Of a stretch of 10,113 nt of DNA, positions 4,678 to 10,113 are shown in pieces. A program made the translations under genes and the position numbers. The stretch's first letter is position 1; every line of letters starts with the position of its first letter. The notes below the pieces were generated by a model. It saw nothing but the letters and a program-made list of their open reading frames with translations. It did not search any database and was not told the DNA's origin. Source of the DNA: Candidatus Aenigmatarchaeota archaeon (GTDB lineage: Archaea; Aenigmatarchaeota; Aenigmatarchaeia; CG10238-14; SpSt-28); contig JAGDWU010000066.1 of NCBI GenBank assembly GCA_023256115.1, positions 1 to 10,113 of the forward strand, in the 5' to 3' direction.

Positions 4678-4689
4678 AATTTATTATGG
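4674..4689. repeat. 16-bp inverted repeat spanning two divergent start codons
   Basis: CCATAAT and ATTATGG form perfect 7-bp arms around a TT spacer. The arms contain the start codons of the 170-residue (-) and 567-residue (+) genes. The symmetry gives both genes mirror-image start contexts. It could be a shared protein-binding site or simply two good start contexts back to back. Confidence 0.6.
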
Positions 4690-6389
4690 AAATTGTAAAA
4701 GAGGAAAAGGTTGAAATTTCGTTAATTGAGCAACCAAATGCTATTTCTCCAATTGATATGATAGGAAGAATAAATAAAAAATTAGCTAGCTTAAATCAAC
4801 CAAAATTAGAAGATAGAAAAGAATATGTAATTTTTGATGGTGTTAAACCTTGGAGCTATGATTTTACAGCACTATTAGGAAAAGTTTTTAATATTGCATA
4901 TTCAATTTATTTTAAATATTCAAAAATTGCAAAAGTTTTTAAAGTTAAAGAATCTCTTTATGTTAGTCCAACTTATCAACCTTACTATCAAATAACAATA
5001 AAGCAAAAAGAAGAAATAGAAAGTTATATAAGAAGCCAGCTAGCTGGAATTGCAAGTTTAGTTAATGATTATTTATTAGCATTGCATGATAAGCGAAAAT
5101 ATGAACACTTTAAAAATATTTTTGATAAAATAGAAAAGCTAAAAAAAGAAGGCAAAAATTTAAAAGAAGAAGAAAGTAAATTAAGGCACATTTTTATTGA
5201 TCAAGTTGATATTCATACTGGAGATTTTTCTTTGGTTAATTTAGCAAGAACAAGATGGCCAACTTTAATTGCAGATTTTTTGGAATTAGAAAATGAAACA
5301 AATCCAAAAGAAATAATAGAAAATTTGAAAAAGAAAAATATTAATATTTCAATGGCGGAAGCGATTGTTCTAGCAAAAAAGAATCTTTTGTATTTAAGTT
5401 GGAAATCTGATTTTGAAAAAATTGTAAAAGAAAGATATGAAGAAATTAGCAAATTAGTTGAAATGAGAAGAAATTCTATAAATGCATATAAAAAATTAGT
5501 AGCACCATATGTTAAAAAATTATTATCCTACCAAGAATCAGTTCCGTCTAAAACATCATTTTTCAAACCAGCTTCTCAAATGGAAGCATTAGAAGAAACA
5601 GTTTATTGGATAATTAAGCCGGTTCCATTTTACTTTTATCCAAAGCCAAGAATTAAATATGAAATAGATGCAGAAACTTTAGGATTAACAAAAACCGAAA
5701 TAGATTGTTTAACTAAAAAAGATTTAAGCGAAGATGAAAAAGACTTAAAAGAGTTTTTAGGAGTAAAAATTGAAAATAAAAAAGTAAAAGTTGGAGAAGG
5801 GTTAATAACAAAAGCTATGCCAATTGAACCTTCTTTAGATAGAATAATTAGAGTTGGGATTCAAATAATAAATGAAAATTTCGGAACAAACTTTACTATA
5901 GCGGATGCGCTCAAAATAAGGCAAGATTTATTAGCCGAAGAAGAAAAAGCTGGTGCGAGGGAAACTTTAAGATTATCTCCATATTATGCATTTATTGAAG
6001 TTTCTGTTTATAGATGTGTTTTAAGATTACCAGACGGTACAACAATTGAAGATTTTAGCGGAGAAGTTAAACCTTTTTTAATTTCACAAAATTTAGCAAT
6101 TTTAACATTATTACAACAAAAAGCGATTGATGAATGGTATGAAAATCAAGCAAACCTTTTTTTAGGAGAAATTCCAAGAGAAAAAATAATGAAATTTCCA
6201 ACATTATTAAAAAATTCTTTAGAAGAATTTTATCAAAAATTTTTAAAAAGAACTGCCTTTTACGAAAAGTATATTTATGAAAGTCCAAAATGGGAGTTAA
6301 TCGCAGGTAGATATTATTCAGATTTTTTAGTTAGTTTATTTTCAGATATTAAATCTACTCTTAAATCTGCATTTAATGTTCCATTTTAA
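4686..6389 (+). CDS. large unrecognised protein (567 residues)
   Basis: I cannot assign a family. The protein has no signal peptide and no clear membrane segment, so it is probably cytoplasmic or peripherally bound. Much of it looks helical. A highly charged, possibly coiled-coil stretch lies at about 137-168. A distinctive block around 176-199 (HTGDFSLVNLARTRWPTLIA) and the RRNSINAYKKLVAPYVKKLL helix (261-280) look like conserved landmarks. A Pro- and aromatic-rich segment (WIIKPVPFYFYPKPRIKYE, 308-326) separates the halves, and a strand-rich part with VYRCVLRLPDGTTIEDFSGE (441-460) comes near the end. No catalytic motif is evident. It is divergent from the three-gene operon of unknowns and converges on the TIP49-like ATPase, sharing stop bases TTAA. 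I have a vague impression of similar long proteins in other DPANN archaea, which I cannot confirm. Confidence 0.8.
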   Translation: MEIVKEEKVEISLIEQPNAISPIDMIGRINKKLASLNQPKLEDRKEYVIFDGVKPWSYDFTALLGKVFNIAYSIYFKYSKIAKVFKVKESLYVSPTYQPYYQITIKQKEEIESYIRSQLAGIASLVNDYLLALHDKRKYEHFKNIFDKIEKLKKEGKNLKEEESKLRHIFIDQVDIHTGDFSLVNLARTRWPTLIADFLELENETNPKEIIENLKKKNINISMAEAIVLAKKNLLYLSWKSDFEKIVKERYEEISKLVEMRRNSINAYKKLVAPYVKKLLSYQESVPSKTSFFKPASQMEALEETVYWIIKPVPFYFYPKPRIKYEIDAETLGLTKTEIDCLTKKDLSEDEKDLKEFLGVKIENKKVKVGEGLITKAMPIEPSLDRIIRVGIQIINENFGTNFTIADALKIRQDLLAEEEKAGARETLRLSPYYAFIEVSVYRCVLRLPDGTTIEDFSGEVKPFLISQNLAILTLLQQKAIDEWYENQANLFLGEIPREKIMKFPTLLKNSLEEFYQKFLKRTAFYEKYIYESPKWELIAGRYYSDFLVSLFSDIKSTLKSAFNVPF

Positions 6390-7750
6390 TATTCTAAAAA
6401 TTGTTTTTCAAATTTTTTAACATATTCAACACTTCTTTTAACATCTACAAATAATTTCTCAACTCTTTCAATATGCTCTTTTTTTATTTTTTTCTCTTTT
6501 TCTTCTCTAGCAACAATCCAAGCAGGAGCTAATAATTGTAATGCATATCTTAATGAATTTTTTTCTCCTAATTCTGTTAAATATTCTAATGCATTTTCAT
6601 CAATTTCAATTTTATCATTTTTAGCTTTAATTTTTATTATTTCCTTTATTTCATCTTTATTGTAAGGCTTAGTATTTATTATTAAAAGTCTATCTAACAA
6701 ATCAATTGGCATAGCATGTGGAGCTTTATAATCTGTTCCTCTAATTGTTGCAACTCCTCTATTAGTTGCAAAAATAAATATTGGAGCTAATTCTTGTTCC
6801 ATTGCTCTGTTTAAAAATGCAAAAGTTTCAATATCTAATAAAGAACATTCATCAATAAAAACAACTCCAGGAATTAATTCGGCTTTTCCTTCTTTTACCC
6901 ATTCTCTGACTAATTCATCAACTTCTTTTCTAATTTCATTATCTATTTCTTTTCTTCCAGCCCCAAAAAATATGCTTGCCAAATCAATTTCACTTTTTGC
7001 CCTTGCTAAATCTAATTGATGTAAACTAACAACATAAACAAATTCCTTTTCTTTCAATACTTTTCCTTCTGGTAATGGAACTGGCTTTTCTGCATATAAG
7101 CTTTCTTCGCTTGCTTTTACAACTCTTTCACTTTTTCCATATTTGTAAACTCTTCCGCTTTCAACATCTAATGCTATTATATCACCAACTTCTACATTTT
7201 GCTGAATTAATTGAATTGCAAATGTTTGATCAACATTTAATTTTTTGCTTTCGTCTTTTGTTTCTAATTTTATTGTTGCACCGATAGGAATTTGATAATA
7301 AGGATTATATGGATGTGGCTTATACTTAATATCCAATTCAACAACTTCACCTTCATAAACTTTTCTTATTTCTCTAATTCTAACTCCAATCGCTTTTCTT
7401 AAAACTTGAGTTAAAAATTCTGTTTTTTTAATTTCTGCACTATAAATTTCGCTTGCAGCTAAATGAACAAATGGAACATCTTTTCCAAGCTCTCTTGCTA
7501 TACCTATTGCTAAAGCTGTTTTCCCACTTCCAGGCGGGCCAACAAGCAAAATTCCTCTACCAGCAAATTTTCCTTCTTTTATTAATTTAACAACAATTGC
7601 AGCTGCTTCTCTAGCTTCAACTTGGCCAACAAACCCATCTGCAATAAATTCTGCTTTTAATCCTTTTACACCCAAACCTTTTATATGGCTATGTGCTGCT
7701 ATTCTTTCTATTTCCTTTAATTCTTCTGCCATTTCTCTTATTTCAGGCAT
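6386..7750 (-). CDS. TIP49/RuvB-like (RuvBL-family) AAA+ ATPase
   Basis: This 454-residue protein has the complete TIP49 architecture. It opens with AAHSHIKGLGV, followed by a GFVGQ segment and Walker A GPPGSGKT (71-78). A strand-rich inserted domain II covers about 125-290, then Walker B VVFIDE (296-301). Sensor 1 follows in FIFATNRG, then the IRGTDYKAPHAMPIDLLDRL block with the arginine-finger region, and sensor 2 in NSLRYALQLL (398-407). Eukaryotic homologues form hexamers that assemble or remodel protein and RNA-protein complexes; the archaeal role is less clear. After Walker B the sequence is DECSLLDIE where, from memory, the family usually has DEVHMLDIE. The start is supported by the family N-terminus and by the TAATAAATT context before the ATG. 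It converges on the 567-residue gene with overlapping stops. Confidence 0.95.
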   Translation of the reverse strand: MPEIREMAEELKEIERIAAHSHIKGLGVKGLKAEFIADGFVGQVEAREAAAIVVKLIKEGKFAGRGILLVGPPGSGKTALAIGIARELGKDVPFVHLAASEIYSAEIKKTEFLTQVLRKAIGVRIREIRKVYEGEVVELDIKYKPHPYNPYYQIPIGATIKLETKDESKKLNVDQTFAIQLIQQNVEVGDIIALDVESGRVYKYGKSERVVKASEESLYAEKPVPLPEGKVLKEKEFVYVVSLHQLDLARAKSEIDLASIFFGAGRKEIDNEIRKEVDELVREWVKEGKAELIPGVVFIDECSLLDIETFAFLNRAMEQELAPIFIFATNRGVATIRGTDYKAPHAMPIDLLDRLLIINTKPYNKDEIKEIIKIKAKNDKIEIDENALEYLTELGEKNSLRYALQLLAPAWIVAREEKEKKIKKEHIERVEKLFVDVKRSVEYVKKFEKQFLEY

Positions 7751-7871: not shown

Positions 7872-9170
7872 TTACACTAGAATTTCTGTTTCCCTTAATC
7901 TTGGAAATGGTAACGTTTCTCTAATATGATCTAATTTACAAATCCACATTAAAAGTCTTTCAACTCCTAAACCCCAACCACTATGCGGAACGCTTCCATA
8001 TTTTCTTAAATCTAAATACCATTTATAATTTTCGACTGGCAAATTCCATTCTTTAATTTTATTTAATAATATATCATAATTATCTTCTCTTTCTGAACCA
8101 CCAATAATTTCTCCATAACCTTCTGGCGCTAACAAATCAAAATTTTCAACTGTTTTTCCGTTTCCACTTTCTTTCATATAAAATGCTTTCAATTTTCTTG
8201 GATAATGAGTAACAAATATCGGAACTTCAAATTCTAATGTTAAAACTTTTTCTTCATCAGCTCCCAAATCATTTCCATATTCAATTTTTAAACCTTTCTT
8301 TTGCAAAATTTCGATAGCTTCTTCATATTTTATTCTTTGCCAATCTTTTTCTATTGCATTTTTTAAAGGTTTTAAATCTCTTCCCAAAAATTCTAATAAT
8401 TTTTTATCATTTTCAATAACTCTTTCTAACACTTTTTTTAAATATTTTTCTGTTTCATTTATTAAATCATTTAATTTATACCAAGCTGCCTCTATTTCTA
8501 AATGCCAAAATTCATGTAAATGCCTTCTAGTTCTTGATTTTTCAGCTCTAAAAGAAGGTGCTAAACAATATACTTTTTCTAATGAAAATATTAATGCTTC
8601 TAAATATAATTGAGAGCTTTGTGTTAAGTATGCTTTTTTTCCAAAGTAATCAAGCGAAAATAAAGTTTGAACCTCTTCAACTGCTACTGGAATTATAATT
8701 GGTGGGTTAACTTCTATATAACCAAGCTTTTCCAATTCTTCTCTTAAATATTTTAATAGATTGGATTTCAATTTCATTATCGCATTTTGCTTTCTAGTTC
8801 TAATATATAGATGTCTATATTTCATTATAGTCGAAATTTCTTCCCTTCCATGTAATGGAAATGGAGAACCTTTATCAAAAATTTTGAAGTTACTAACCTC
8901 TATTTCATAACCTTCTGGTGCTCTTTCTTCTTTTCTTAAGATTCCGCTAATTTCAATAGATCCTTCAATTTGTAAATCCAAAAGATCTTTCCAATCTTTT
9001 TCGCTAAAATTTTCTTTTTTTGCAACACATTGAATTATTCCGGTAGAATCTCTTAATACTATAAAAATGTTTTCTTTTAATTCTCTTTTTCTATAAATCC
9101 AGCCTTTTATTGTTATTTTCTTTCCAATATATTGTTCATTTAATATATCTTTAATAAACAACTCTTTCAT
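7872..9170 (-). CDS. asnS: asparaginyl-tRNA synthetase (class IIb)
   Basis: This enzyme activates asparagine with ATP and charges tRNA-Asn. Its 432 residues cover the full archaeal AsnRS. The N-terminal OB-fold anticodon-binding domain (about 18-100) includes VLRDSTGIIQCV. Motif 1 lies around 136-161 and the TQSSQLYLEA segment at 183-192. Motif 2 is FRAEKSRTRRHLHEFWHLE (208-226), followed by EIIGGSERE and motif 3 GLGVERLLMWIC (400-411). AsnRS rather than AspRS is supported by TQSSQLY and by GSVPHSGWGLG. The start at 9170 has the same TAATAAATT leader as two other genes here. It lies 17 bp after the stop of the upstream AsnRS-like chimera. An organism with this enzyme can charge Asn directly rather than by transamidation of Asp-tRNA-Asn. 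Confidence 0.96.
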   Translation of the reverse strand: MKELFIKDILNEQYIGKKITIKGWIYRKRELKENIFIVLRDSTGIIQCVAKKENFSEKDWKDLLDLQIEGSIEISGILRKEERAPEGYEIEVSNFKIFDKGSPFPLHGREEISTIMKYRHLYIRTRKQNAIMKLKSNLLKYLREELEKLGYIEVNPPIIIPVAVEEVQTLFSLDYFGKKAYLTQSSQLYLEALIFSLEKVYCLAPSFRAEKSRTRRHLHEFWHLEIEAAWYKLNDLINETEKYLKKVLERVIENDKKLLEFLGRDLKPLKNAIEKDWQRIKYEEAIEILQKKGLKIEYGNDLGADEEKVLTLEFEVPIFVTHYPRKLKAFYMKESGNGKTVENFDLLAPEGYGEIIGGSEREDNYDILLNKIKEWNLPVENYKWYLDLRKYGSVPHSGWGLGVERLLMWICKLDHIRETLPFPRLRETEILV

Positions 9171-9186
9171 AATTTATTATTATAAT

Positions 9187-9194
9187 ATTATAAA
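9187..9194 (-). promoter_or_regulatory. candidate TATA box for asnS
   Basis: On the minus strand TTTATAAT ends 16 bp before the asnS ATG and overlaps the end of the upstream gene. It is slightly closer than ideal for a leaderless archaeal promoter. asnS could instead be read through from upstream. Confidence 0.3.
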
Positions 9195-10113
9195 TCCATA
9201 ACAATACCAGGTATTCTTGGAAAAGGTTGAACTTCAGCTATATGTTTGACTTCGCAAATCCAAGCTAATAATCTTTCTAAGCCTATTCCTGCGCCTGCGG
9301 AAGGTTTTAATTTTCCTTTTTTTGATAGCTCTAAAAATAATACATATTTTTCTTTCTTTATTCTATCTCTTTCCATTTTTTTAACTAATTTATAATATTC
9401 TATTTCTCTTTTTGAACCAGATAAAATTTCTCCAATTTTAGGTAAAAGTAAATCATAGTTATCCCATTTGCCTGTTTCAAAATCTTCATAATCATAGAAT
9501 TGTCTTGGAATGTTTCTAACCCAAAGAAAATAGTCAATTTCCTTTACTATTTTTTCTTCCCAATCTTTACCAAACTCTTTTTCTAATTCTTCTCTATCTT
9601 TTTCTTTATTTTTAACAATAATATTAATTCTTCTACTATCACATTCTATTTTTACAACTTCATAAGCTAGCTTCACATCGACACCACTTCGAACAGCAAG
9701 CCTATACATGCCGAGAGGTATCTCCTGAAAGCCGCCGTAACTGGGATAAAGCTCCTCGACATACGTCTGCGCCGTATAGTGAGAATACTGGGGATCCTTA
9801 CCAATAGACAGACGCCTCTGGACAAGATCGGGATCGAGATCCTTGCCTCTGAGCCCCCACCACTTCTCGCTATATTCTCCAAAAAACTCCCAATACAGAT
9901 CCCACCCTAGCAGATTAACCAGGATTTCCTCGAAATTGCCCCCCTCACGTGGGCCAAGCTTATCAGGCACTGTAATATTTCGCTTAATTGATCTCAGCAT
10001 ATTTATATTGTTTTCAGTAATAACTGGAATTACATTATCAAATATATTCCCATATTTATATATACGAGGAATTGATTTTAAATTTATAGTATTAACCAGT
10101 CTTTTTACATAAT
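9188..10113 (-). CDS. chimeric frame: FAD amine-oxidase/UGM-like segment joined to C-terminal half of an AsnRS-like asparagine synthetase
   Basis: The frame is open from the right edge to TAA at 9190-9188; the first ATG inside the window (10000) is probably internal. Numbering from that Met, the part before about residue 115 resembles FAD-dependent amine oxidases related to UDP-galactopyranose mutase. It has IPRIYKYGNIFD (upstream of the Met), NFEEILVNLLG, the typical EFFGEYSEKWWG (38-49), RRLS, and PSYGGFQEIPLGMYRLA before a GVDVKL strand. The part from about 135 onward is class II synthetase. It shows WVRNIPRQFYDYED, KWDNYDLL, EILSGSKRE and motif 3 SAGAGIGLERLLAWICE (234-250), ending QPFPRIPGIVMDL. 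This matches the AsnRS paralogue that makes asparagine in some archaea. Motifs 1 and 2 are missing, as is the second half of the oxidase. A truncated, probably non-functional fusion or an assembly join is likely. Confidence 0.65.
   Translation of the reverse strand, partial: YVKRLVNTINLKSIPRIYKYGNIFDNVIPVITENNINMLRSIKRNITVPDKLGPREGGNFEEILVNLLGWDLYWEFFGEYSEKWWGLRGKDLDPDLVQRRLSIGKDPQYSHYTAQTYVEELYPSYGGFQEIPLGMYRLAVRSGVDVKLAYEVVKIECDSRRINIIVKNKEKDREELEKEFGKDWEEKIVKEIDYFLWVRNIPRQFYDYEDFETGKWDNYDLLLPKIGEILSGSKREIEYYKLVKKMERDRIKKEKYVLFLELSKKGKLKPSAGAGIGLERLLAWICEVKHIAEVQPFPRIPGIVMDL
9661..9970. other. GC-rich island inside the chimeric gene
   Basis: A hand count gives 154 G or C in 300 bases for 9661-9960 (about 51%). 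The 60 bases to the left have 10 (17%), and 10021-10113 has 19 of 93 (20%). Codons inside the island (CTG, CTC, GAG, AAG, AGG, CCC, GGC) differ from the TTA, GAA, AAA and AGA used elsewhere. The left edge falls at about the point where the protein changes from oxidase-like to synthetase-like. The right edge falls inside the oxidase-like part. A 10-bp palindrome, AAGCTAGCTT (9664-9673), sits on the left edge. No transposase, terminal repeat or target duplication is visible. Confidence 0.85.

Follow-up and report, generated by a model that had tools for sequence, protein, structure and literature searches.

The window analysed here, a stretch of 10,113 nucleotides, is the entire contig C9 of a 624,674-base, 110-contig draft genome with a completeness of 82.4% and a contamination of 2.4%, judged to be archaeal from the genes present. 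On its minus strand, a stop-free frame runs from the contig end at 10111 to a stop codon at 9188-9190 and encodes 307 residues. The first-pass annotation had described a single uninterrupted frame uniting two unrelated protein families, and this is what is observed, since the minus-strand frame is open throughout and profile matches to both families are found. The upstream part (9584..10111, minus strand) comes from the interior of an FAD-dependent oxidoreductase resembling UDP-galactopyranose mutase and protoporphyrinogen oxidase, and the downstream part (9188..9598, minus strand), composed of frame residues 172-307 and the stop codon, is the C-terminal half of an archaeal asparagine synthetase A related to asparaginyl-tRNA synthetase (AsnRS). 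An ATG at 10000 had been taken as the gene start. It is internal, corresponds to frame residue 38 and would give a 270-residue version; the proposal was abandoned because the frame remains open up to the contig end and the related oxidoreductase P0001, described below, has a lysine at this position and extends upstream. The synthetase fragment is followed, after 17 bases, by an intact AsnRS gene (asnS, 7872..9170, minus strand), whose product scores 497.7 bits with NF003037, above the cut-off of 414, and shares 74.8% identity with a frame of G001, a genome from the same genus. Elsewhere in the window, a TIP49-type ATPase gene was observed at 6386-7750 (PF06068, E 3e-136) in what is a small genome, and a plus-strand ORF of 567 amino acids at 4686-6389 had no Pfam match above cut-off. 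No tRNA or Rfam family was found in the window.

The origin of the first part is best seen from P0001, an intact FAD oxidoreductase of 438 amino acids that is encoded on a different contig of 5316 bases. Frame residues 1-176 align with P0001 residues 69-244 without a gap and with 173 identities out of 176. The mismatches are at frame residues 38, 98 and 147, and none is present in residues 148-176. The residues of P0001 before 69 would fall past the contig end and its sequence after 244 is missing from the frame. As a consequence of beginning at residue 69, the frame gives no match to the PF13450 Rossmann-type N-terminal region, which covers residues 8-73 of P0001. In P0001 itself, PF01593 and PF13450 both score above cut-off, NF005548 covers residues 4-423 at 130.5 bits against a cut-off of 389, and the solved chains that match it best by sequence are UDP-galactopyranose mutases. 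The whole frame matches models of FAD oxidoreductases weakly (19.0-27.8 bits) and within residues 16-170. The assignment of the first part to relatives of UDP-galactopyranose mutase and protoporphyrinogen oxidase was thus essentially right, as judged from the profile and solved-chain matches, and the EFFGEYSEKWWG block that had been reported in it is present and identical in P0001-P0004. At residue 98 (window position 9820), the frame has a glutamine of its own; the position is conserved, with proline in P0001-P0004.

The second part was placed in the same way. Against NF005054 (asparagine synthetase A), the whole frame scores 167.5 bits at frame residues 168-305 (profile 177-316 of 318), and the isolated piece 9188-9604 scores 169.1 bits, its residues 4-136 lying on profile positions 182-316 of 318; both values are below the cut-off of 309 bits. 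This part also matches residues 163-290 of the solved chain 3p8t_A (E 5.5e-37), which upholds the AsnRS-related family that had been assigned to it. Its relatives are 306-348 amino acids long in 105 of the 120 matches listed, the other 15 being shorter, down to 176 amino acids, and no synthetase homology was found upstream of frame residue 172. Class II motifs 1 and 2 presumably belong to the N-terminal half of this enzyme. The earlier description of a paralogue lacking both motifs was mistaken if the lack is taken as natural: the fragment is what remains, on the C-terminal side, of an enzyme with a length of about 306-348 amino acids, and the N-terminal half is absent here.

Conservation was scored over 51 columns in which the 120 matches listed agree to at least 97%; these matches were picked for their similarity to the window's synthetase half, a choice that favours a high score. 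The synthetase half keeps 50 of the 51, the exception being residue 195 (proline to phenylalanine), and it does not look decayed on this ground. Among the 120 matches listed, 95 show no change in these columns, 17 show one and eight show two. Four synthetases from the same order change 9-13 of the 51 columns, but belong to another subtype. In the segment 9500-9529, the phenylalanine at residue 195 stands against proline in all 120 matches listed, and a glutamine at residue 204 stands against glutamate in eight relatives compared; these deviations may be either real changes or mistakes in the sequence close to the end of the contig. Identity to the synthetase half was 63-70% for four listed matches that were measured, of which two bear the names Bathyarchaeota and Nitrososphaeria, and 41-49% for four same-order relatives. 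These identities suggest an asparagine synthetase gene from another archaeal phylum, with an organism name attached to only a few of the 120 matches listed.

The oxidoreductase piece was found to be a compositional mosaic, in which a block of 324 bases with about 50% GC is flanked by parts of the same gene with 20-23% GC. The GC-rich block lies at 9677..10000 on the minus strand (GC 0.497, GC3 0.519) and encodes frame residues 38-145. Codon use was compared with 2000 resampled stretches, for which 10 of the 110 contigs supplied 76 ORFs. In this comparison, the GC-rich block scored under all 2000 of the same-genome stretches. The AT-rich oxidoreductase parts, residues 1-37 and 146-176, were not unusual (20th and 80th percentiles) and the synthetase half was at the 59th percentile. 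High-GC stretches are not unique in the genome, as GC maxima over 200 bases reach 0.33-0.50 in 10 other contigs. The Marsarchaeota homologue in L022 has 25-37% GC in each 111-base step. Conservation and codon use together make the GC-rich tail look foreign and the synthetase half look native and under constraint.

The place of the join follows from the two alignments. The match to P0001 is ungapped through frame residue 176 (window position 9584), where P0001 reads ...KNKEKDREEL, and diverges thereafter. The synthetase match begins at frame residue 172-173 (window 9598-9595), and the synthetase family is conserved from DREEL-E on, its near-invariant upstream residues not being in the window. 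The two parents thus overlap in the peptide DREEL (9584..9598, minus strand), which P0001 shares with 19 of the 120 synthetases listed as closest, and this sets the join at about 9584-9598. If the codons agree, the shared stretch would amount to some 15-18 bases, the overlap being known at the protein level only. Five-residue words are not rare by chance: the longest common word was of five residues in 23 of 120 pairs, and words of at least five were found in 303 of 2400 shuffled comparisons. The argument therefore rests on the coincidence of the join with DREEL and not on the existence of DREEL.

A breakpoint at 9661 had been proposed previously, which is off by about 60-80 bases with respect to these limits. 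The attraction of a join at 9661-9676 is that GC falls there from about 0.5 to about 0.2, with the drop near 9670. P0001 crosses this step ungapped, without a mismatch over residues 148-176, which places the step inside the oxidoreductase. Moreover, a synthetase beginning there should display its near-invariant residues at frame positions 152, 154, 156-158, 164, 167 and 168, and these are absent from the window. A join at the step is consequently very improbable.

Searching the two parts separately, as had been suggested, returned no protein with both among the matches listed. In these searches, a relative is found only if it has exact short words in common with the query. Of 45 candidates, four matched the first part at E <= 1e-3; their Pfam domains are of the FAD/NAD-binding kind, and PF00152 is found in none of them. 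For the second part, the 120 matches listed out of 1020 have PF00152 only. The missing halves were also sought within the window's own genome. With P0001 as query against the 110 contigs of this 82%-complete genome, the window piece was the sole match. With the synthetase P0005 as query, this half, the AsnRS and a synthetase-like frame on contig C43 were recovered, with no separate N-terminal half; the only frames elsewhere in the genome that align to the N-terminal part of P0005 are the AsnRS and the C43 frame. With the genome at 82% completeness, the missing halves may be in DNA that did not enter the assembly. In G001, which is 94% complete, the AsnRS gene is flanked by other genes on both sides, and this genome had no match to the synthetase A P0007 at E <= 1e-50 and none to P0001 at E <= 1e-10. 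A frame of 384 amino acids on G001 contig C8, putatively UDP-galactopyranose-mutase-like, was considered as the parent of the tail and rejected (E 5.4e-5, 27% identity). It adjoins a putative glycosyltransferase-like frame.

Across the window's phylum, P0001 found a match at E <= 1e-10 in eight of 156 genomes including the window's own, the other seven being 25-28% identical. The closest named relatives of the oxidoreductase belong to Marsarchaeota G1, with 48-54% identity. In the search of genome contigs for a donor, P0001 matched one locus, in Marsarchaeota G1 BE_D (G057); in the class of G057, it was found in one of 197 genomes, G057 itself; and among 398 genomes drawn from the phylum of G057, three had matches at E <= 1e-15, G057 included, with 50, 37 and 25% identity. 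None of the candidates across the genome contigs and the class and phylum of G057 came near 98% identity. Mobile elements were discarded as the origin of the tail: the 514-base tail was unmatched in a phage collection, no 150-residue tblastn match was obtained in plasmids, and in viral contigs neither the frame nor P0001 had a confirmed relative.

Taken as a whole, the frame is very probably a chimera of two separate archaeal genes, produced by assembly or amplification at the contig end. The two genes would have been joined at a short shared sequence, that of the peptide DREEL. Below 9598, the sequence would be that of the window's own archaeon, with asnS lying behind the 3' half of the gene for asparagine synthetase A. 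The sequence between position 9584 and the contig end would have come from a different DNA molecule, as an inner portion of the gene for an FAD oxidoreductase. Both genes read the shared stretch in one and the same frame, and for this reason such a join leaves the frame open. We infer that the synthetase half is native to the window's genome and that the join was made during assembly or amplification rather than in the cell. The foreign piece forms the last 516-530 bases of the contig, which speaks for a chimera, and each parent has intact relatives encoded by a gene of their own, P0001 for the one and the full-length synthetases for the other. The protein identity with P0001 is 98% and not 100%, so that the parent may be another strain, or else the contig end has errors. 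Misassembly or an amplification chimera had been among the readings first offered, and this one is now favoured, short of proof, by the terminal position of the foreign piece, the intact separate parents and the lack of a bridging homologue among the matches listed. Against it, passages of one study state that, in its authors' experience, assemblers rarely make chimeric scaffolds of two organisms (PMC7111523).

The frame could have arisen instead by a real and very recent recombination in the cell, in which oxidoreductase DNA from a neighbour or host archaeon entered the asparagine synthetase gene and disrupted it. The existence of a near-identical intact protein (P0001, 98%) means that a donor may share the habitat, the best oxidoreductase relatives other than P0001 are from a different archaeal phylum, and the synthetase, being unlike those of the four same-order relatives, may itself be an import. 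Such an event is nevertheless improbable, since the foreign piece sits at a contig end, the oxidoreductase exceeds 28% identity in no other genome searched of the window's phylum, and the synthetase half shows no decay; the 50 near-invariant residues kept out of 51 likewise weigh against the earlier idea of a fossil of recombination. Such a recombination, improbable as it is, would amount to a transfer between phyla through a shared stretch of about 15-18 bases, in a small archaeon and caught before decay. A functional two-domain fusion protein has the open frame alone in its favour and is barely conceivable: neither half is complete, the oxidoreductase lacking the sequence after P0001 residue 244 and the synthetase its N-terminal half, and no homologue among the matches listed spans both parts. 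The odd in-frame fusion that had been one of the readings first offered is likewise not supported, both parts being combined in none of the four oxidoreductase matches and none of the 120 listed synthetase matches, and an intact oxidoreductase of 98% identity being on record. From its sequence, the frame is most likely not a natural fusion gene and not a new protein.

The probable chimeric origin has consequences for annotation, which would otherwise take up a spurious two-domain fusion and wrongly credit the window's archaeal lineage with this oxidoreductase. In addition, a join that preserves the frame can arise from a short shared peptide, so that a chimera is not contradicted by an open frame, and a breakpoint need not coincide with a GC step.

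Each part of the frame has a known counterpart. Like the archaeal asparagine synthetase A enzymes (NF005054; PDB 3p8t and 1nnh), the window has their C-terminal half in frame residues 172-307, with 50 of 51 near-invariant residues, but unrelated sequence takes the place of the N-terminal half. P0001 resembles the PRK07208-like FAD oxidoreductases and relatives of UDP-galactopyranose mutase (NF005548, TIGR00031, PF01593) in its match to NF005548 over residues 4-423 and in its PF01593 score, yet it remains under the NCBIfam cut-offs and the window carries only its residues 69-244. As for the join, passages of a study of MDA chimeras describe how overlaps 3 to 30 bases long were sought between their two parts (PMC6515389), and the short shared stretch at DREEL may be of this kind. 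The chimeric scaffolds of metagenome assemblies, which according to passages of PMC7111523 lack paired-read support or show a change of coverage or phylogeny across the join, provide the other parallel, in that the window frame appears to join the sequences of two organisms.
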